A program made the translations under genes and the position numbers. From NCBI GenBank assembly GCA_032881465.1, contig CP126168.1:3349501-3413500 (forward strand): DNA of 64,000 nt. The letters are read 5' to 3'. Below, in pieces: positions 3-8,154 of this stretch. The DNA comes from Parvibaculaceae bacterium PLY_AMNH_Bact1. Lineage in GTDB: Bacteria > Pseudomonadota > Alphaproteobacteria > Parvibaculales > Parvibaculaceae. The notes below the pieces were generated by a model that saw nothing but the letters and a program-made list of their open reading frames with translations, was not told where the DNA came from and did not search any database. Position 1 is the stretch's first letter. Each line of letters starts with the position of its first letter.

Positions 3-206
3 GCCTGGATGAAATGGGCAGGACACGGACGACGAAAAGGCAAATCAGCACAAGATCTGCACCATGAAATGTCAGACGAAACAGCGGATCTACTGGGCCA
101 CATCCTCCTGTTCGCACAACAGAATAATATCGACTTGGAAGCAGCCATCAGCCGCAAATGGCGGTTCGATCCAACCGCCGATGTACCTGCCTCTGAAAAC
201 GACTAG
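3..206 (+). CDS. MazG-like pyrophosphohydrolase, C-terminal fragment
   Basis: This is the 3' end of a gene that begins before the window; the frame is open to the left edge and stops with TAG at 204-206. The 68 visible residues contain ETADLLGHILLFAQQNNIDLEAAI split over a helix pair, which resembles the end of the MazG/nucleotide pyrophosphohydrolase fold (E-x-ADvL...LADxxGIDLExAI). Members hydrolyse non-canonical or alarmone NTPs. The stop overlaps the stop of the converging gene by 4 bases. The metal-binding EExxE part would lie outside the window, so activity cannot be judged. Confidence 0.55.
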   Translation, partial: AWMKWAGHGRRKGKSAQDLHHEMSDETADLLGHILLFAQQNNIDLEAAISRKWRFDPTADVPASEND

Positions 207-1012
207 CCAAGAAGTTTTGTGAGATCGCCATAAGGAGGATCATCATTTGTGAAGGTGAAGCTTCCCTGATCTCTAATCTCTTTGGCGGCTTTCAAAAACC
301 CACCAAGCGCCGCGGCCGCCAGGGCACTTCCGGTACTGATCCGCTTAACGCCAACAGCGGCCAGCTGATCAACGGTTAGCGTATGGCCCGGCAGGCCCGC
401 CAGCACATTGACCGGGCGGTCAACCGAGCGCACCAGCTCTGAAATCTCATCAATATCTGTCAGACCTGGCGCATAAAGCACGTCAGCACCTGCTTCCTGG
501 TAGGCCTGCAACCGTTCGATGACAGCGTTGAGATTCCGATCACCCACGAGATAGTTCTCGGCGCGCGCCGTCAGAACAAAAGAAACCTCGCCGCTGTGCG
601 CCATCTCGGCAGCAGCTTCAATCCGAGCCTTTGCCATGTCGAGGGGATAGAGCAAACGCTCCGGCGTCATGTCTTCAATGGATCCGCCCGCAAGCCCGGC
701 AGCAATGCCAAGCCGGATCGTTTCAGCCACTGCTTCGGGCGCGTCACCCCAGCCATTTTCCATGTCCGCATTCACTGGCAAAGAGGTTGCTTCAACAATC
801 TGCGAAATATGCGCAAGCATAACCTCACGCCCCACCCGGTTATCCAGTGTACCGATAGAGTAGGCATACCCGGCACTTGACGACGCAAGCGCCTCAAACC
901 CCAGCCCCTCAAGAAGACGCGCCGTGCCCCGATCATACGGGTTTGGGATGACAAGAGGCTTATCCTGTGTGTGAAGCGCCTTTAAACGTTCGGCTTTTTC
1001 TTTCTGGCTCAT
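203..1012 (-). CDS. isocitrate lyase/PEP mutase family protein
   Basis: This 269-residue protein belongs to the isocitrate lyase/phosphoenolpyruvate mutase superfamily, TIM-barrel enzymes that make or break C-C or P-C bonds next to a carboxylate, in the cytoplasm. The sequence shows the N-terminal LVIPNPYDRGTARLLE strand, the metal-binding region PVNADMENGWGD, and the SIEDM segment typical of the oxaloacetase/carboxyphosphonoenolpyruvate-mutase-like subgroup. The KKCGH motif of true isocitrate lyase is not present, so a glyoxylate-cycle role is unlikely. The ATG at 1012 is preferred over an upstream in-frame GTG at 1036 because AGGAG sits 8 bases before it. The substrate is unknown. Confidence 0.85.
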   Translation of the reverse strand: MSQKEKAERLKALHTQDKPLVIPNPYDRGTARLLEGLGFEALASSSAGYAYSIGTLDNRVGREVMLAHISQIVEATSLPVNADMENGWGDAPEAVAETIRLGIAAGLAGGSIEDMTPERLLYPLDMAKARIEAAAEMAHSGEVSFVLTARAENYLVGDRNLNAVIERLQAYQEAGADVLYAPGLTDIDEISELVRSVDRPVNVLAGLPGHTLTVDQLAAVGVKRISTGSALAAAALGGFLKAAKEIRDQGSFTFTNDDPPYGDLTKLLG

Positions 1013-1086
1013 GCGTCTTACTCCTGTTCTGGTCACCCGCTGGATATATGGATAGAGCGGACGGAACGCTCGCCATTTTCGGACGC

Positions 1087-1914
1087 CTACAAAGCTGAAG
1101 GGGTGAGGAACCGTTCCAGAATTTTTCGCTGCTCATCTGTTTCAACGGGCAACCCAAAATGCTGATCCAGCAGCGCGACCATCTCTTCGACATCTGCGAT
1201 CTCATGGACGGTCTGATCTTCACCCTGTTTACGTTCAACAAATGTGTTGTTGAAAATCATCCGCCGCGCCTCAGCGGAGGGGCGTTCCACAATCAGGTTG
1301 TTGGTAAAGAGAGACTCAGGATGGGTCGACGTGTACCAGCTCGATAGTTCGTAGTCGACGGGCGATTGCGGCGTCAGCGTAAACACACACACATTCGCCC
1401 ACTGTTTCCCCAGATCAGCCTGGATGGTGTAGTTCTCGCCATTCTGAACGATGCGGTGATCTTCATGCCGCGTCTGCTGAACAAGATCAGGGACAAGCTT
1501 CAACACGCCTGTCAGGCGAATACCGCCAAACCCACCATCGTAAATGTATGTCCCATCCTCAAAATCAACGCGGATCAGCATATGTGTGAGCGGCGCGGCA
1601 ACTTCATCCGCCACCATCCACCGGACGCGCCCGATTAAGCCCGTCGCCTGGAAGCCCAATTGACGAAGAGCGGCGAGCGCGAGCCCATTCTGCTCGAAGC
1701 AATATCCGCCGCGACAGGCGCCAACGATCTTGCTCTGCAATGTGGCAAGATCAAGCTGCACACCCCGCCCGAACAGAATGCTCAAATTTTCAAACGGAAC
1801 GGAGGTGGCATGAGCAAACTGGATCGCCGTCAAATTCTCCAGTGTCGGCTCGCGGCCGCCCTCATAGCCGATACGGGCGAAATAGGCATCAAGATCGATT
1901 TGAGCGTCAGACAT
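1087..1914 (-). CDS. nat: arylamine N-acetyltransferase
   Basis: This cytoplasmic enzyme transfers acetyl from acetyl-CoA to arylamines and hydrazines. At about 275 residues it has the usual length. The catalytic Cys is in RGGYCFEQN, the His in THMLIRV and the Asp in YIYDGGFGG, giving the complete Cys-His-Asp triad. The C-terminal domain is present. A GTG two codons earlier (1920) is possible; the ATG at 1914 begins MSDAQIDL. The gene stands alone on the minus strand, and a strong terminator of the preceding mmsA gene separates the two, so it must have its own promoter in the short gap. Its native substrate cannot be inferred. Confidence 0.9.
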   Translation of the reverse strand: MSDAQIDLDAYFARIGYEGGREPTLENLTAIQFAHATSVPFENLSILFGRGVQLDLATLQSKIVGACRGGYCFEQNGLALAALRQLGFQATGLIGRVRWMVADEVAAPLTHMLIRVDFEDGTYIYDGGFGGIRLTGVLKLVPDLVQQTRHEDHRIVQNGENYTIQADLGKQWANVCVFTLTPQSPVDYELSSWYTSTHPESLFTNNLIVERPSAEARRMIFNNTFVERKQGEDQTVHEIADVEEMVALLDQHFGLPVETDEQRKILERFLTPSAL

Positions 1915-1928
1915 GGGCACACCACCAC

Positions 1929-1961
1929 AAAAAAGGAGTGCTCCCTATGTAGGAGCACTCC
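1929..1961 (-). terminator. rho-independent terminator of mmsA
   Basis: A perfect 10-bp inverted repeat (GGAGTGCTCC at 1935-1944 with GGAGCACTCC at 1952-1961) is followed on the minus strand by six T residues. It lies 55 bases past the mmsA stop. Confidence 0.85.
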
Positions 1962-2015
1962 CGTCATTTACCTAGAGCCAATTCCGAACTCCAACTGCCT
2001 TTTGTTCCCTTGAGC

Positions 2016-3515
2016 TTACTTCATCGTAGGGATCACGAAGCTGGAGCCTTCTTTCACACCGGTTGGCCAGCGAGACGTGACCGTCTTCACTTTGGTGTAG
2101 AACTTCACACCCTCTGTGCCGTGTTGGTTCGTGTCACCAAAGGCAGACCGTTTCCAGCCGCCAAACGAATGGTACGCAAGGGGCACAGGAATCGGCACAT
2201 TAATGCCCACCATGCCCACATTCACTTTCGATGCGAAGCTGCGCGCTGCGTCCCCATCACGGGTAAAGATCGCAACTCCGTTGCCATACTGGTGTGCACT
2301 CGGCAGTTCCGCAGCTTCTTCAAATGTCTCAGCCCGCACAACAGAGAGAACCGGCCCGAAAATCTCTTCTTTCCAGATGTCCATATCAGGCGTCACATTG
2401 TCGAACAGCGAGCCACCGATAAAGAAACCATCTTCATAACCTTGAAGCTCAAAACCGCGACCATCAACGAGCAGATCTGCGCCCTGCTCAACACCGCGAT
2501 CGATCCAGCCAGCAACCTTATCGCGCTGTTCAGCGGTCACCATCGGTCCATAGTCTGCGTCCGCATCTGTCGAGAGACCAACTTTCAGACTTTCAACGCG
2601 CGGAATAAGTTTCTCAATAAGCCGGTCGCCCGTCTCCTTGCCCACTGGCACAGCAACTGAAAGCGCCATACAGCGCTCACCAGCAGAGCCATAGCCTGCA
2701 CCGATGAGATCATCCACAACTCGGTCAAGGTCAGCATCCGGCATGATGATGGCGTGATTTTTCGCGCCACCCATAGCCTGCACACGCTTCCCGTGGGCAG
2801 CACCTGTTGCGTAGATATATTCCGCAATCGTAGAAGAACCGACAAAGCTAATGGCTTCAACCCGCGGATCAGTCAAAAGCGTATCGACCGCTTCCTTGTC
2901 CCCATTCACAACATTAAGGACACCAGCGGGTGCACCTGCTTCCATGAAAAGTTCTGCCAGGCGCAAAGGCACGCTTGGATCTTTTTCAGATGGCTTGCAG
3001 ACAAATGTGTTGCCGCAGGCAATCGCTACACCAAACATCCACATGGGGATCATGGCCGGGAAGTTGAACGGGGTGATACCGGCACACACGCCCAAAGGCT
3101 GACGCATGGAGTACATGTCGATGTCAGGGCCTGCGCCTTCGGTAAACTCGCCTTTCTGGAGGTGCGGAATGCCACAGGCAAACTCAATCACTTCCAGACC
3201 ACGCTGAATGTCGCCCTTACTGTCGGCGATAACCTTGCCATGTTCAGACGAGAGCATTTCGGCTAGCTCATTCATATTGTCTTCGAGCAGGCGTTTGAAG
3301 TCGAACATCACCCGCGCGCGACGCTGCGGGTTTGTAGCGGCCCAGCCCGGAAACGCAGCAGCGGATGATGCAATGCCCGCCCGCACTTCATCTGCGCTCG
3401 CAAGTGGCGTCTGAGCGGTAACCTCACCCGTATTCGGATTGAAGACACCAAGCGTCCGATCGCTTGTGCCAGCGACTTTCGCGCCGTTGATAAAGTGGTG
3501 AAGGTCCATGGTCAT
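2016..3515 (-). CDS. mmsA: CoA-acylating methylmalonate-semialdehyde dehydrogenase
   Basis: The enzyme oxidises methylmalonate or malonate semialdehyde to propionyl-CoA or acetyl-CoA with NAD and CoA, in valine, thymine and inositol breakdown. The 499 residues match the family length exactly. Visible hallmarks are the PFNFPAMIPMWM segment, the NAD-binding FVGSST motif, and the nucleophile region SAGERCMALS with the catalytic Cys; FGGWKRSAFGD is near the C-terminus. The ATG at 3515 was chosen because GGGAG lies 7 bases upstream and a longer reading frame to 3662 adds residues unlike the family. It is monocistronic, with a terminator downstream. Confidence 0.95.
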   Translation of the reverse strand: MTMDLHHFINGAKVAGTSDRTLGVFNPNTGEVTAQTPLASADEVRAGIASSAAAFPGWAATNPQRRARVMFDFKRLLEDNMNELAEMLSSEHGKVIADSKGDIQRGLEVIEFACGIPHLQKGEFTEGAGPDIDMYSMRQPLGVCAGITPFNFPAMIPMWMFGVAIACGNTFVCKPSEKDPSVPLRLAELFMEAGAPAGVLNVVNGDKEAVDTLLTDPRVEAISFVGSSTIAEYIYATGAAHGKRVQAMGGAKNHAIIMPDADLDRVVDDLIGAGYGSAGERCMALSVAVPVGKETGDRLIEKLIPRVESLKVGLSTDADADYGPMVTAEQRDKVAGWIDRGVEQGADLLVDGRGFELQGYEDGFFIGGSLFDNVTPDMDIWKEEIFGPVLSVVRAETFEEAAELPSAHQYGNGVAIFTRDGDAARSFASKVNVGMVGINVPIPVPLAYHSFGGWKRSAFGDTNQHGTEGVKFYTKVKTVTSRWPTGVKEGSSFVIPTMK

Positions 3516-3572
3516 TAGTCTACTCCCGCCCTGGGGCCCGGCAATCGGGCAAAATCCTGCCCGTTGCTTAGC

Positions 3573-3606
3573 GCTCTGGGTGAGGGCTCGCAAGCCCCAC
3601 CGGGAG
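3573..3606. other. large imperfect hairpin upstream of mmsA
   Basis: GCTC..GAGC, GGTG..CACC and GGGCT..AGCCC stack into one stem-loop with a CGCA loop inside the 179-bp gap between acr3 and mmsA. There is no T-tract on either side, so it is not an obvious terminator. It could be a structured mmsA leader. Function unknown. Confidence 0.4.
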
Positions 3607-3694
3607 CAATTGTCGAGGATATTGCGAATGAAGGCAGGGAGGAGCGGTAGCCGTAGCGGCAATCACGCCTTCAGCCCTTCTCATGCCGGCCGGT

Positions 3695-4774
3695 CTAGTC
3701 ACCACCTTGAGGGACAGAAATAGGCTTTTCTGCCGCAAACCAGCGTCTTTTCAGCCACAGCGCCACGCTCACCAGACCGATCAGCACCGGCACTTCGACC
3801 AGCGGCCCGACAACCGTGGCAAAGGCCACCGGCGACGCGATCCCGAATGCCGCGATGGCCACCGCGATGGCCAACTCGAAATTGTTCGAGGCCGCCGTGA
3901 AAGACAAGGACGTGGTCCGTTCATAATCCGCACCGAGAGCCTTGCCCATCGCGAAACTGACCGCGAACATGACAAGAAAATAGATAGCCAGCGGCACCGC
4001 GATGCGCAGGACATCCAGCGGGAGCTCCAGCACGGCCTCCCCTTTCATCGCAAACATGATCAGGATCGTGAACAGGAGCGCTGTCAGCGTGATAGGGCCG
4101 ATACGCGGGAGGAATTTTTCCGCATACCATTCGTCGCCCTTTCGGGCGCGCAGAACACGCCGCGTCAGATAACCGGCGGCAAAAGGAACACCAAGATAGA
4201 GCAGGACGGCACCTGCAATCGTGTCGAAACTGATATTGAGAACCTGCCCCTCAAGCCCAAGCAAAGGGGGCAGCACACTGAGAAAGAACCAGGCATAGAC
4301 ACTGAAAAAGACCAGCTGGAAGATGGAGTTGAAGGCGACCAGTCCTGCCACATATTCATTGCTGCCCCGTGCCAACTGGTTCCAGACGATGACCATGGCA
4401 ATGCAGCGTGCCAGACCGATAATGATGAGCCCGGTCATATATTCCGGCTGGTCGCTCAGAAAAACAACCGCCAGCACAAACATCAGCACCGGTCCGATCA
4501 CCCAGTTCTGCACCAGTGACAGCAGCAACACTTTCCGGTCTTCGAAGACACGCGGCAGTTCCTCATACTTCACCCGCGCAAGGGGCGGATACATCATGAG
4601 GACGAGGCCTATCGCAATCGGCAAATTTGTGGACCCGATAGTCATCGAATCTATCAAACTAGGCACACCGGGGATGATGGTTCCCGCAGCGGTCCCAATA
4701 CCCATCGCAACAAAGATCCAAAGCGTGAGATACCGGTCAAGAAATGATAAACGTTGAGCAGAACTTTCAGACAT
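3695..4774 (-). CDS. acr3: ACR3-type arsenite efflux transporter
   Basis: Acr3 exports arsenite across the inner membrane by proton-motive force. The 359-residue protein has about ten hydrophobic segments. The conserved motif [16 protein letters not shown] carries the essential membrane Cys, and FNSIFQLVF and [18 protein letters not shown] are family signatures. Starting at 4774 gives [19 protein letters not shown], which fits family N-termini; the open frame runs further back into arsC but without support. It is the last gene of an operon, 22 bases after arsC, so arsenite made by ArsC or freed by ArsI can be expelled. No clear terminator follows. Confidence 0.95.
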
Positions 4775-4796: not shown

Positions 4797-5324
4797 CTAA
4801 GCGCTTTCGTTCTTCTGATCTGTGGAGGCCTTGCCGATCTTGTCCAACTCGCGCTGCAGCGCCAGCTCATCCAGACTGGACATCGGCAGGTTCACGAAGA
4901 TATCAATCCGCGCTTTGATCTGACGTAACACATCCAGGAAGACGGCGCGCTTTTCCACCTCTGGGCCAACAAAGGCGGCAGGGTCTTCAAAAGGCCAGTG
5001 TGCACTCATAGGCTGACCCGGCCAGATAGGACAGACTTCGCCAGCGGCGTTGTCACAAACCGTAAAGACAAAATGCATCTTCGGCGCACCGTCCACAGCA
5101 AACTCGTCCCACGACTTCGAGCGCAGACCATCGACAGAGATCTTCGCTGTCTTGAGCGTTTCAAGTGCTGCATCGTTCGGCGCACCCGTGGGGTGACTTC
5201 CCGCAGAATATCCTCGAAAGGGAATGCCGGGAATGGAATTGAGATAGGCCTCTGCAAGCAGGCTGCGTGCGGAGTTGCCGGTGCATAGAAAAAGAACATT
5301 GTAGATCGTGGAATGACCCGACAT
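4797..5324 (-). CDS. arsC: arsenate reductase, low-MW phosphatase type
   Basis: ArsC reduces arsenate to arsenite so it can be exported. The N-terminus carries the P-loop LCTGNSARS, the LMW-PTPase-like CX5R catalytic motif, and FTVCDNA and EVCP provide further cysteines for the redox relay expected of thioredoxin- or glutathione/glutaredoxin-coupled members. The 175-residue protein has a C-terminal helical extension. The ATG at 5324 is preceded by a near-perfect ribosome site (AAGGGAGG). A 106-base gap separates it from the upstream dioxygenase gene, the widest within the operon, so a secondary promoter is possible. Confidence 0.93.
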
Positions 5325-5430
5325 GGTACCTCCCTTAGGAAACAGATATATGTCCGCAGACGATTTCATGGACATTTTACGTTTTAGTGACAATTCAGTA
5401 GGTGCCGGACCCTGCAGGCCTGAACATCTA

Positions 5431-6411
5431 CTACGAAATCCCCTTCCTCAGCATCTCATCGCCCAGCGAAAACTGATGGGAGGTGAGCCACAACCTCAAC
5501 AAATGACGCTTCTCTTCCGGCTCATCCCAATCTTCATATTCGGTACGTTTGTGGAGAATCGCAGCATTCTTGAGGAATTGCATATCGCCTGGCTCAAAAT
5601 GCATATCAAGATAGAAATCCTCACGATTGGCTATCTTCTCAATCATTTCCACACACGCAATCTGGTCCGCGCTTAACTGGGGAGCGCCTTCATGTACTTG
5701 CGATTCACGAATGTACCAGGGGATGAAAAAGGTCCGAAGCCGCCCTTGGTCCTCATGACATATAGGGAAATCAAACCAAGGCTGCTGCCCAGGCTTTTGT
5801 TGCCCTTGCGTGTCGAACGGAAACGTCTCTCGAAGAACCGTGGCGAGGTCCGGTCGTTGTTTCACCAGCTCATTGTATATAGTCACAGAACTCACAATCC
5901 GGCTCACGCCACCGCTACGTCCGCCCCGCAAACAAAACAGGCCAATAATGTCTGCACCGTCTGTATGAAAATCCTGCTCTACTCGCGTTTTGTATAAGCG
6001 CACACCATAGGCGTTTGGATCTGCACCCACATCACGCACATGACCCAGCAGATCACCATCGGTATTTTGAGGAACCGCCTCGCCCATGTGAAGACCGATA
6101 CCCCAGTAAACAAGCTCGCAATCTTCCTTGCTGTATTCGCGAACTGGAAATCCACGAACAAGCTGGAACCCGCGGCCTAGGTTAAGTTCACTCATCCAAG
6201 AGTGAATTTTCTTCCCTAGACTGGGAAGCGGAAAATCCTCCACATTCCAGGCATCCATGTCCTTTCCCGTAGAGCAGGCAACGGCAAGTGCGGCGGACAA
6301 CTCATCGATGTCCGCCACGCTCAATTGGTAGACCCAGGCAGTGTCTGATTGGATCTCCGTTCCACGCCACGCGTCTGGCGTATCAAAATGCAACACAGGC
6401 ACCTCACTCAT
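5431..6411 (-). CDS. TauD/TfdA-family 2-oxoglutarate dioxygenase in ars operon
   Basis: This 326-residue protein looks like an Fe(II)/2-oxoglutarate dioxygenase. The facial triad is visible as His149-x-Asp151 in QDFHTDGAD and a distal His287 in AILHKRTEYED, and an Arg suited to bind 2-oxoglutarate lies in RHLLRLWL. GFQLVRGFPV is typical of the TauD fold. Its ATG is only 3 bases after the arsI stop, so the two are translated together. Being between arsI and arsC, it is probably induced by arsenicals. Its substrate is not known to me; an organoarsenical or another organic acid are both possible. It is not a standard ars gene. Confidence 0.85.
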   Translation of the reverse strand: MSEVPVLHFDTPDAWRGTEIQSDTAWVYQLSVADIDELSAALAVACSTGKDMDAWNVEDFPLPSLGKKIHSWMSELNLGRGFQLVRGFPVREYSKEDCELVYWGIGLHMGEAVPQNTDGDLLGHVRDVGADPNAYGVRLYKTRVEQDFHTDGADIIGLFCLRGGRSGGVSRIVSSVTIYNELVKQRPDLATVLRETFPFDTQGQQKPGQQPWFDFPICHEDQGRLRTFFIPWYIRESQVHEGAPQLSADQIACVEMIEKIANREDFYLDMHFEPGDMQFLKNAAILHKRTEYEDWDEPEEKRHLLRLWLTSHQFSLGDEMLRKGIS

Positions 6412-6414
6412 CGC

Positions 6415-6867
6415 TCAGCAACAACCCGCGGCTCCGGTCACAGGAGTTGGCGTCTCAGTGACTTCGGGAGAGACTGGTTCAACACTAATGCCCGTGCCGC
6501 GTTCTTCCGTCTGATGGTGTGTAAAGAACGCTTCCCACGCAACGCCGTCAGGATCAGTGGTCCAGCTTTTCTCCGATTTATGGTAGCAGCAGGTGGTGAC
6601 ACCTTCCGGCAAATAGGGACCTTCAGCCTGCTTGAGCTGGTCAAACAGGGGCGCAAGCTCTTCTTCGCTCTCCACCTGAATGCCCGCATGATTAAAGCCA
6701 GATTGTTCTGCTCCCGCTTCAAGAACGAAATTCACCCGTGGGTCATCAAGCATCCATTTCGCATAGTCATCTTTTTGAGTGGTCGGCTCCTGTCCAAAGA
6801 GCGTCGAATAGAAAGCCACAGACTTTTCCAGATCTGCAACACCAAAGCTTACATGTAATCTCTTCAT
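6415..6867 (-). CDS. arsI: ArsI-type C-As lyase (VOC/CadI family)
   Basis: ArsI is an Fe(II)-dependent extradiol-type dioxygenase that cleaves the C-As bond of trivalent organoarsenicals such as methylarsenite, giving arsenite. The 150-residue protein has the metal ligands at His5 (RLHVSF), His60 (FNHAGIQV) and Glu112 (AWEAFF), and the vicinal cysteine pair Cys93-Cys94 (TTCCYH) that binds the arsenical in characterised ArsI. A second Cys pair ends the protein (AAGCC). The ATG shares the ATGA overlap with the arsR stop, which fixes the start and shows coupling. The older name for this family is CadI, cadmium-induced. Confidence 0.9.
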   Translation of the reverse strand: MKRLHVSFGVADLEKSVAFYSTLFGQEPTTQKDDYAKWMLDDPRVNFVLEAGAEQSGFNHAGIQVESEEELAPLFDQLKQAEGPYLPEGVTTCCYHKSEKSWTTDPDGVAWEAFFTHHQTEERGTGISVEPVSPEVTETPTPVTGAAGCC

Positions 6868-7196
6868 GTTCCTGTTTCCTCTAACGACGGCGCACACGCG
6901 CCCTGACAACAATCTTCCAATAGGTAATCGGCAAGGGCACGCATGCCGCCGAGATTTGCTGTGTAAATGATCGAGCGCCCGTCACGCCGCGCAGAGACAA
7001 GCCCCGCCCGCGTGAGCTCCTTCAAATGAAAGGAAAGTGTGGGAGCAGCGACACCCAATTGCTCTGCCAGGCCGCCAGCGGGCAATCCCGCCTCATCGGC
7101 ATTTGGTGAGTGGGCACGCACCAGCGTACGGAAAATTTCCAACCGGGTTTCCTGAGCCAAAGCGCCAAGTGCTTCTATCGCGTTCATCATTTCCAT
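6864..7196 (-). CDS. arsR: ArsR-family arsenite-responsive repressor
   Basis: A 110-residue winged-helix repressor that should bind the ars promoter and release it when arsenite binds. The recognition helix region is APTLSFHLKELTRAGLVSARRDGRSIIY. Metal-sensing cysteines are at the C-terminus (EDCCQGAC), like the Acidithiobacillus-type ArsR with a CC..C site, and not in the helix-3 position of plasmid R773 ArsR. It is first in the operon and overlaps arsI by 4 bases. A palindrome just upstream of the start is a likely operator. No Shine-Dalgarno is clear, so the message may be nearly leaderless. Confidence 0.93.
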   Translation of the reverse strand: MEMMNAIEALGALAQETRLEIFRTLVRAHSPNADEAGLPAGGLAEQLGVAAPTLSFHLKELTRAGLVSARRDGRSIIYTANLGGMRALADYLLEDCCQGACAPSLEETGT

Positions 7197-7202
7197 ATTT
7201 TG

Positions 7203-7231
7203 ATAATTATAGAATTATAATGAGATTTCAA
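7203..7231 (-). promoter_or_regulatory. candidate ArsR operator and ars promoter
   Basis: The palindrome ATAATTATAGAATTAT (7203-7218) begins 7 bases upstream of arsR, in a very AT-rich patch between divergent genes. It overlaps a TATAAT-like -10 (7206-7211), with TTGAAA at 7226-7231 as a possible -35, although the 14-base spacer is short. Autoregulation by ArsR is inferred. Confidence 0.5.
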
Positions 7232-7321
7232 CCCCAATTCTCCAGAAAATCGAAATATCTGAAAAGACCCGCAGTTTTGCTAGGGTGAGGTAGGACAATT
7301 GACCGATGAGGAGGACAGCAA

Positions 7322-7624
7322 ATGATCGTCATTACCGGACAGGCAGCCATTGCCGCAGACAAGATCGACGCCTTCCGCCCTGTGGCAGAGCGACAAGTCA
7401 CCCTCTCCCGCAAGGAAGAAGGCTGCCTCAACTATGGGTACTACGAAGACGCCATGGCACCAGGCACCTTCCTTTTCTATGAAGAATGGAAGGACCAGGC
7501 AGCGGTCGATTTTCACTTTGCTCAAGCCTATTGCCTGGAATTTATGACTGCCGCTGGCGAACTCTCCTCAACACCGCCAAAGGTCAACATTCACCAGGTC
7601 GCGAACACACAAGTGATTGGATAA
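7322..7624 (+). CDS. antibiotic biosynthesis monooxygenase (ABM/YgiN-like)
   Basis: A 100-residue dimeric ferredoxin-like-fold protein of the ABM domain family, which includes quinol monooxygenase YgiN. The sequence shows MIVITGQAAIAADKID..F at the first strand, EEGCLNYGYYED, and FLFYEEWKDQAAVDFHFA, the characteristic W-x-x-x-x-A..H core. A GAGGAGG ribosome site precedes the ATG. It is divergent from arsR and shares its intergenic region, so it might respond to the same signal, but nothing else ties it to arsenic. Confidence 0.85.
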   Translation: MIVITGQAAIAADKIDAFRPVAERQVTLSRKEEGCLNYGYYEDAMAPGTFLFYEEWKDQAAVDFHFAQAYCLEFMTAAGELSSTPPKVNIHQVANTQVIG

Positions 7625-7665: not shown

Positions 7666-8037
7666 CTATTCAGCGTTGTGACAAACCGCTTCGATATTGT
7701 GGCCATCAAGGTCGAGCACAAACGCACCGTAGTAATGCTCGTGATAGATCGGACGAAGCCCTGGCGCACCATTATCCTTCGCGCCCGCCACAATCGCTGC
7801 TTCGTAAAACGCATCAACCGTCGCTCTGTCTTTCGCCAACAAGGCCACATGGAGCTTCGGTGCGGGAGCGCCCTGCTCAATCCAAAAGTCAGGCTTCCCA
7901 TTTTCGCCAAATCCGGCAAACGGGCCGACCTCCGGCATCTCCATAATCAAATCATAGCCAAGTGGCTTCAAGGCCAGCCGATAGAACTCTTTTGACTGTT
8001 TAAAGTCCGAGACACTAATGCCAACGTGATCAATCAT
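7666..8037 (-). CDS. VOC family (glyoxalase-like) protein
   Basis: This 123-residue protein has a glyoxalase/bleomycin-resistance fold: MIDHVGISVSDFKQSKEFY opens the first beta-alpha module, and HEHYYGAFVLDLDGHNIEAVCH ends the second with a Glu metal ligand. The start at 8037 follows an AAGGGAAG ribosome site and is the family start. It may bind a divalent metal and act on a small vicinal-oxygen substrate; which one is unknown. It lies tail to tail with the ABM gene. Confidence 0.85.
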   Translation of the reverse strand: MIDHVGISVSDFKQSKEFYRLALKPLGYDLIMEMPEVGPFAGFGENGKPDFWIEQGAPAPKLHVALLAKDRATVDAFYEAAIVAGAKDNGAPGLRPIYHEHYYGAFVLDLDGHNIEAVCHNAE

Positions 8038-8154
8038 CGGGTCTTCCCTTCTTGTTGTTCGGATGCCCCGCAAGGATGGCAAACACTTCTATGTCGAACA
8101 AGCAAACAACACCGGCAGACAGTGCCTGTCCTGACAGCTTTTGTCAGCAGATAC

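Follow-up and report, generated by a model that had tools for sequence, protein, structure and literature searches.

On the minus strand of the window (the whole 64,000-nucleotide stretch of DNA analysed here, from a Parvibaculaceae genome that forms one contig of 3.74 Mb), an oxygenase gene of the TauD family, below called tauD, lies within an ars operon whose genes follow the order arsR-arsI-tauD-arsC-acr3. The features are as follows.

7197..7235, minus strand: possible promoter/operator ahead of arsR, with a promoter-like site and an AT-rich stretch
6864..7196, minus strand: arsR, ArsR/SmtB repressor with C-terminal CCQGAC cysteines (NF033788, 64.3 bits, cut-off 55; motif)
6415..6867, minus strand: arsI, ArsI/CadI VOC-family C-As lyase with TTCCY motif (NF041414, 116.7 bits, cut-off 116; motif)
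5431..6411, minus strand: tauD, TauD-family Fe(II)/2-oxoglutarate oxygenase gene, 326 amino acids (PF02668, 122.7 bits; linkage; tree)
5959..5967, minus strand: codons of H149-x-D151, presumed proximal iron ligands (invariant, 58/58)
5551..5553, minus strand: codon of H287, presumed distal iron ligand (invariant, 58/58)
5494..5508, minus strand: codons of R302 to R306 (invariant, 58/58)
5325..5430, minus strand: tauD-arsC spacer, its arsC-proximal half visually similar to the spacer between arsI and arsC in genome G003, whose operon lacks the cassette
4797..5324, minus strand: arsC, LMW-phosphatase-type arsenate reductase (PF01451, 45 bits, cut-off 23.2; start by inspection)
3695..4774, minus strand: acr3, arsenite efflux pump (TIGR00832, 435.7 bits, cut-off 282.8; start by inspection)

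The span 5431-6867 thus holds two minus-strand genes, arsI and tauD, separated by a 3-base gap (6412-6414) between the stop of arsI and the start of tauD; arsR and the start of arsI overlap by 4 bases, and tauD stands 106 bases from arsC if the arsC start at 5324, chosen by inspection, is used. Coordinates and ars models agree with an earlier note on this DNA, which had placed the gene 3 bases after arsI and ahead of arsC in an organoarsenical operon. ArsI exceeds its equivalog cut-off marginally (116.7 versus 116) and carries the vicinal cysteine pair of TTCCY, and the best named model for ArsC, TIGR02691, gave 72.3 bits, below its cut-off of 174.3. Promoter-like sites in the scanned region were not above chance (4 seen, 2.3 expected), and a promoter/operator ahead of arsR is at most suggested by the sequence.

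Several genes around this operon, or elsewhere in the genome, are recorded here as side observations. A divergent gene for an ABM-type monooxygenase (7322-7624; PF03992), found 80% identical and in the same placement in genome G005, adjoins the operon, as does a second VOC protein (7666-8082; PF00903). Downstream of acr3, at 203-3662, lie three genes that we take to encode PEP-mutase/isocitrate-lyase-like, arylamine N-acetyltransferase and methylmalonate-semialdehyde dehydrogenase proteins, their order kept in locus L030 at 71-91% identity. At another locus of the same genome (L215:3709-4761; genome positions 1175708-1176760) an ArsM-related methyltransferase of 350 residues ends in Cys-Cys and matches the ArsM model in two pieces of 113.5 and 90.9 bits, below the cut-off of 263; similar matches occur in G003, G005 and G006. 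Across the 9 genomes searched, neither ArsM nor ArsH gave a match above cut-off, with weak ArsH matches in 2.

The TauD-family protein

Membership of the window protein in the TauD family is clear (PF02668, 122.7 bits, cut-off 27), and H149, D151, H287, R302 and R306 are invariant in all 58 aligned sequences, the window's own counted. The facial triad HxD...H is present together with the 2-oxoglutarate-binding arginine (H149, D151, H287, R302), bearing out the earlier description of a TauD-type dioxygenase with a full facial triad. By analogy with the TauD family we take H149, D151 and H287 to be the iron ligands and R302 presumably to be the 2-oxoglutarate arginine, and judging by motif we place R306, the second arginine, where TauD has its sulfonate-binding arginine. 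R306 would fit an oxyanion such as arsinate; because it is invariant family-wide, it is weak evidence for an arsenical oxyanion.

No family model with a named substrate matched the protein above cut-off, with scores of 24.1 bits against TIGR02410 (cut-off 268.3), 22.2 against TIGR02409 (414.75) and 17.3 against NF049936 (400). The nearest solved sequences are 7n7v, annotated 'Predicted hydroxylase' (E 7.2e-51), for which no mention was found in the literature searched, and FrbJ (5eqn; E 1.6e-39). As to the double-stranded beta-helix fold typical of the family, an AlphaFold model of the protein, built from a 4-sequence alignment, is too poor to use (mean pLDDT 51), and the relation to the solved 7n7v is one of sequence homology.

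Linkage to ars genes in two families

Close orthologues of the protein, about 62-78% identical, were found in 4 of 40 genomes of the window's family, namely the window genome, G005 (78% identical to the window protein), G029 (65%) and G030 (63%), the next best match being 47%. These genomes are species representatives, partly drawn evenly from larger groups, such that all counts given here are sample counts; an order-level query gave the same 40, and G005 is counted as one with 'Rhodobiaceae bacterium NORP32', a metagenome bin and the closest relative found that bears a name. A scan of genome contigs returned two loci. All four orthologues sit between arsI and arsC, and the operon ends with acr3 in three cases and with an aquaporin-family gene (PF00230; aqpS by context only) in G005. 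ArsI itself occurs in 28 of the 40 genomes, so the gene accompanies it in 4/28; in the 24 others the search of whole genomes gave no close TauD, and this includes the genomes of loci L183 and L189, which break off at a contig end shortly behind arsI, and of L186 and L188, which show no arsC.

A second lineage was recovered from six genomes (G608, G946, G982, G1196, G1205, G1223), whose TauD proteins are about 42-46% identical to the window group. G608 belongs to another family (f12), and its relatives came from 249 genomes of that family (G946, G982) and 376 genomes of its order (G1196, G1205, G1223); 59 genomes of the genus of G982 yielded no further one. In all six genomes tauD is followed by a gene for a flavin monooxygenase (FMO) whose best model is ArsO (NF040505; 264.5 bits in G608, 276.8 in G982, under the cut-off of 425). 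In G982 the pair lies in an operon of the order arsR-arsI-tauD-FMO-arsC-aquaporin, with an ArsI of 133.3 bits (cut-off 116) and with ArsC and aquaporin below named cut-offs. In the remaining five genomes, which share a genus, the tauD-FMO pair stands at loci L097, L211, L222, L223 and L224, and no ars genes were found in the 14-17 kb read around it; an MFS transporter adjoins the pair in 4 of these 5 loci. Among the three sister-subclade genes compared, dN/dS was 0.15-0.21, indicating constraint and nothing further; among the four close orthologues synonymous sites were saturated.

Outside these ten proteins, none of 51 loci with TauD homologues (L006-L029 and L031-L057, about 27-47% identical, a few shortened by contig ends) had any of ArsR, ArsI, ArsC and Acr3 in the surrounding 1.5 kb or so, nor did 9 of them that were read up to about 5 kb per side. 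Of 385 genomes sampled from the class, 53 carried a TauD homologue (E <= 1e-70), and the one in the window alone exceeded 47% identity. Conversely, ArsI was found at 67 places in 64 genomes of an equally large class sample (E <= 1e-25). When three TauD queries were run at E <= 1e-5 against the neighbourhoods of 60 of the 66 non-window places, some of them cut by contig ends, no TauD-family gene came up; the other 6 places were left out. Across 398 genomes sampled from the phylum, matches at E <= 1e-80 came from the window genome and G608 alone.

A conserved location in ars operons across genomes was thus found for 4/4 family orthologues and 1/6 members of the sister subclade. The earlier note had taken absence of conserved linkage, together with no arsenical phenotype, as the mark of an incidental insertion; linkage held in two bacterial families (the four orthologues and G982), and it is not incidental. 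Chance or a reading artefact is rejected because of the homologues, the conserved residues and the occurrence in two families.

One clade, and operons with and without tauD

In a tree of 62 proteins, the four close orthologues and the six sister-subclade proteins group into a single clade (ultrafast bootstrap 98, SH-aLRT 94), within which the four have support of 100/98 and the six of 100/100; a long-branch warning concerns rows outside the ten. Trees were computed without the partial L019, and the L066 copy was swapped for the same gene read from L097. Half of the clade (5/10 members), in two families, sits in ars operons. Four residues, I156, Q204, W232 and K281, are present in 10/10 clade members and 0/52 other proteins, position 204 being Glu in 50 of those 52, and the ten share a C-terminal motif, F-x2-GD-x2-L-x2-G. 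Departures from conserved columns numbered 3 for the four close orthologues, 0, 1, 1, 2 and 3 for other groups of 2-6 members and 22 for the distant trio L027-L029; since control groups show similar counts, such departures alone prove little. The gene, its conserved residues, its conserved linkage and its clade-specific residues are direct observations.

Operons with and without the gene occur among close relatives. Three genomes of the window's genus (G003, G006, G007) have an arsR 98-99% identical to that of the window (99% in G003) and no gene between arsI and arsC, and their operons end, unlike the window's, with an aquaporin gene. By eye, the arsI-arsC spacer of G003 resembles the arsC-proximal part of the tauD-arsC spacer in the window. 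Given these cassette-free operons and the likeness of the spacers, tauD looks like a discrete cassette placed between the arsI stop codon and a G003-like spacer. In another genus the arsI and arsC genes of G029 are close relatives of those of G013, but the cassette is present only in G029. Trees of ArsI, ArsR and ArsC did not bring the four operons with tauD together (4 changes, the same number as for shuffled labels), so they do not discriminate between repeated gain, repeated loss and recombination.

Three further observations concern the sequences at these junctions and the spread of the gene. The arsI-tauD junction of the window (6404-6423) and the arsI-arsC junction of G006 (L108) both carry TGTTGCTRAGCGATGAGTGA, a possible recombination point. 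In G003 (L107, 6455-6471), after the arsI stop and before arsC and the aquaporin gene, lies a perfect match to the direct-repeat pattern that we assumed for a Pho box (CTGTCAC-N4-CTGTCA; 0.02 expected with up to one mismatch), which makes phosphate-starvation control of arsenate reduction possible in that genome; the ars operon of the window had no match to the pattern at up to 2 mismatches. Plasmid-borne spread was considered and rejected: the best plasmid matches, at 41.8% (window protein) and 41.4% (G982 protein), are not close. No TauD match was found in viral contigs.

A proposed role in organic arsenic breakdown

These results suggest that the TauD-family ars gene of these few aerobic bacteria probably encodes an unrecognised enzyme for the breakdown of organic arsenic. 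Of the two roles raised in the earlier note, action on another arsenical is the more likely one. In its specific form, our preferred reading is that of a dedicated organoarsenical oxygenase which hydroxylates beside arsenic and feeds ArsI, to which we give a probability of roughly 0.45. The scheme that follows infers how the gene is regulated, which class of substrate its enzyme acts on, the reaction and its product, and the sequence of the steps. The gene would be co-expressed with the ars operon under control of ArsR, and its enzyme would hydroxylate a C-H adjacent to arsenic, as TauD does adjacent to sulfur. In a di- or polyalkylated arsenical a C-As bond would then break to leave a mono-organyl arsenical, candidate substrates being dimethylarsinate or a compound formed when algal arsenosugars or arsenobetaine are broken down; ArsI would cleave the mono-organyl arsenical to arsenite, which Acr3 or the aquaporin would remove. 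TauD-type enzymes hydroxylate carbon beside a hetero-atom, after which the product falls apart, and we know of no use of di- or polyalkylated arsenicals by ArsI. Besides the linkage, the single clade with its private residues and the cassette-like placement, the phosphonate pathway to which FrbJ belongs counts in favour of this reading. Counted against an organoarsenical role are the 5 of 10 clade members without an ars gene in the stretch read, the 24 of 28 arsI-bearing family genomes that lack tauD, and the occurrence of clade-private residues in control groups too.

A narrower proposal, which we think unlikely, would make the enzyme the missing aerobic demethylase that converts dimethylarsinate to a monomethyl arsenical and formaldehyde, such that together with ArsI one operon would take dimethylarsenic to exportable arsenite, the FMO of the sister subclade first oxidising the trivalent form. 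In the parts of the cited papers available, the mechanism of dimethylarsenate demethylation, carried out by methanogens in anoxic soil, is called 'unclear' (PMC10579292), and SAR11 is described as aerobically oxidising the methyl carbons of dimethylarsenate, with information on the biochemical steps scarce (PMC6426599). The same source proposes as candidates for the dimethyl step ArsI itself, whose action on dimethylarsenate it describes as not yet tested, or, in SAR11, an ArsI-domain protein whose level rises with dimethylarsenate (PMC6426599). Given these proposals and the anaerobic methanogens, the dimethyl step may need no TauD-type enzyme, which weighs against the preferred reading too.

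The gene could instead be a passenger, coding for an oxygenase with a non-arsenical substrate, brought into an ars operon and since dispersed together with it. Its patchy occurrence (4/28 family genomes with arsI) and the tauD-FMO pairs without an ars gene in the stretch read (5/6 sister-subclade genomes) fit such a history. We consider it somewhat unlikely: tauD directly follows arsI in two families whose proteins are about 42-46% identical and whose operons differ, it occurs with either efflux gene, and the private residues are common to the clade. That the position behind arsI is kept in 5/5 ars operons also speaks against an enzyme that would detoxify an intact organoarsenical (the antibiotic arsinothricin, for instance) through hydroxylation with the C-As bond kept, leaving ArsI to handle other arsenicals. 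This reading, which we hold to be quite unlikely, draws on FrbJ, which works in a phosphonate antibiotic pathway and is, with 7n7v, among the nearest solved sequences, and on the arsinothricin genes, described in the available part of one report as lying within an arsenic resistance operon (PMC8552651).

Placement directly behind arsI would suit an enzyme that processes the carbon product released by ArsI, one of the roles raised in the earlier note. We find this highly improbable, since no such gene lies beside arsI in 24/28 family genomes and 60/60 other neighbourhoods, and since to our knowledge formaldehyde is not a substrate of TauD-type enzymes. Formaldehyde is what methylarsenite yields, according to the available part of a 2018 ars gene survey (PMC6205960), and the idea has accordingly lost ground.

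The part of that survey at hand contains no occurrence of TauD, oxygenase or dioxygenase (PMC6205960), and in the accessible portion of a paper that mentions arsenic, TauD, arsI and dioxygenase the tauD and ars genes are listed apart (PMC11647585). Among the matches listed from the partly available open-licence literature, no description of a TauD-family ars gene was found, in line with the earlier note, which was aware of none, and titles and abstract beginnings among those matches named no bacterial TauD-type enzyme for demethylation of dimethylarsenic, arsenobetaine or arsenosugars. Monomethylarsenic demethylation is assigned to ArsI, and because the aerobic demethylation of dimethylarsenic is left open in the available parts of the cited papers, tauD becomes a direct candidate for that step under the preferred reading of an organoarsenical oxygenase feeding ArsI. 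As a soluble oxygenase gene directly behind arsI it would be a second specific gene besides the ArsI-domain candidate, and the operons of close relatives with and without it provide a natural genetic control.

Compared with known systems, the window protein shares with taurine dioxygenase (TauD) and PF02668 the family, the facial triad and the arginine pair, and its clade differs from them by the private Q204, W232 and K281 and the C-terminal motif. With the gamma-butyrobetaine and trimethyllysine dioxygenases and TmpA it has the superfamily in common, but it scores far under their equivalog cut-offs. FrbJ has R-x-E, as in the paralogues, where the window clade has Q-x-Q or H-G-Q, whereas 7n7v shows neither in a pairwise alignment. 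ArsO is the nearest named match of the sister-subclade FMO, which, being under the cut-off, is ArsO-like rather than ArsO, and the window operon lacks such a gene. Finally, with the arsI-containing ars operons of the family and class (arsR-arsI-arsC followed by acr3 or aquaporin) the window operon shares the genes and their order around the cassette, and it differs from them by the additional 2-oxoglutarate oxygenase gene between arsI and arsC; what is new here is an accessory gene in an already known kind of operon.
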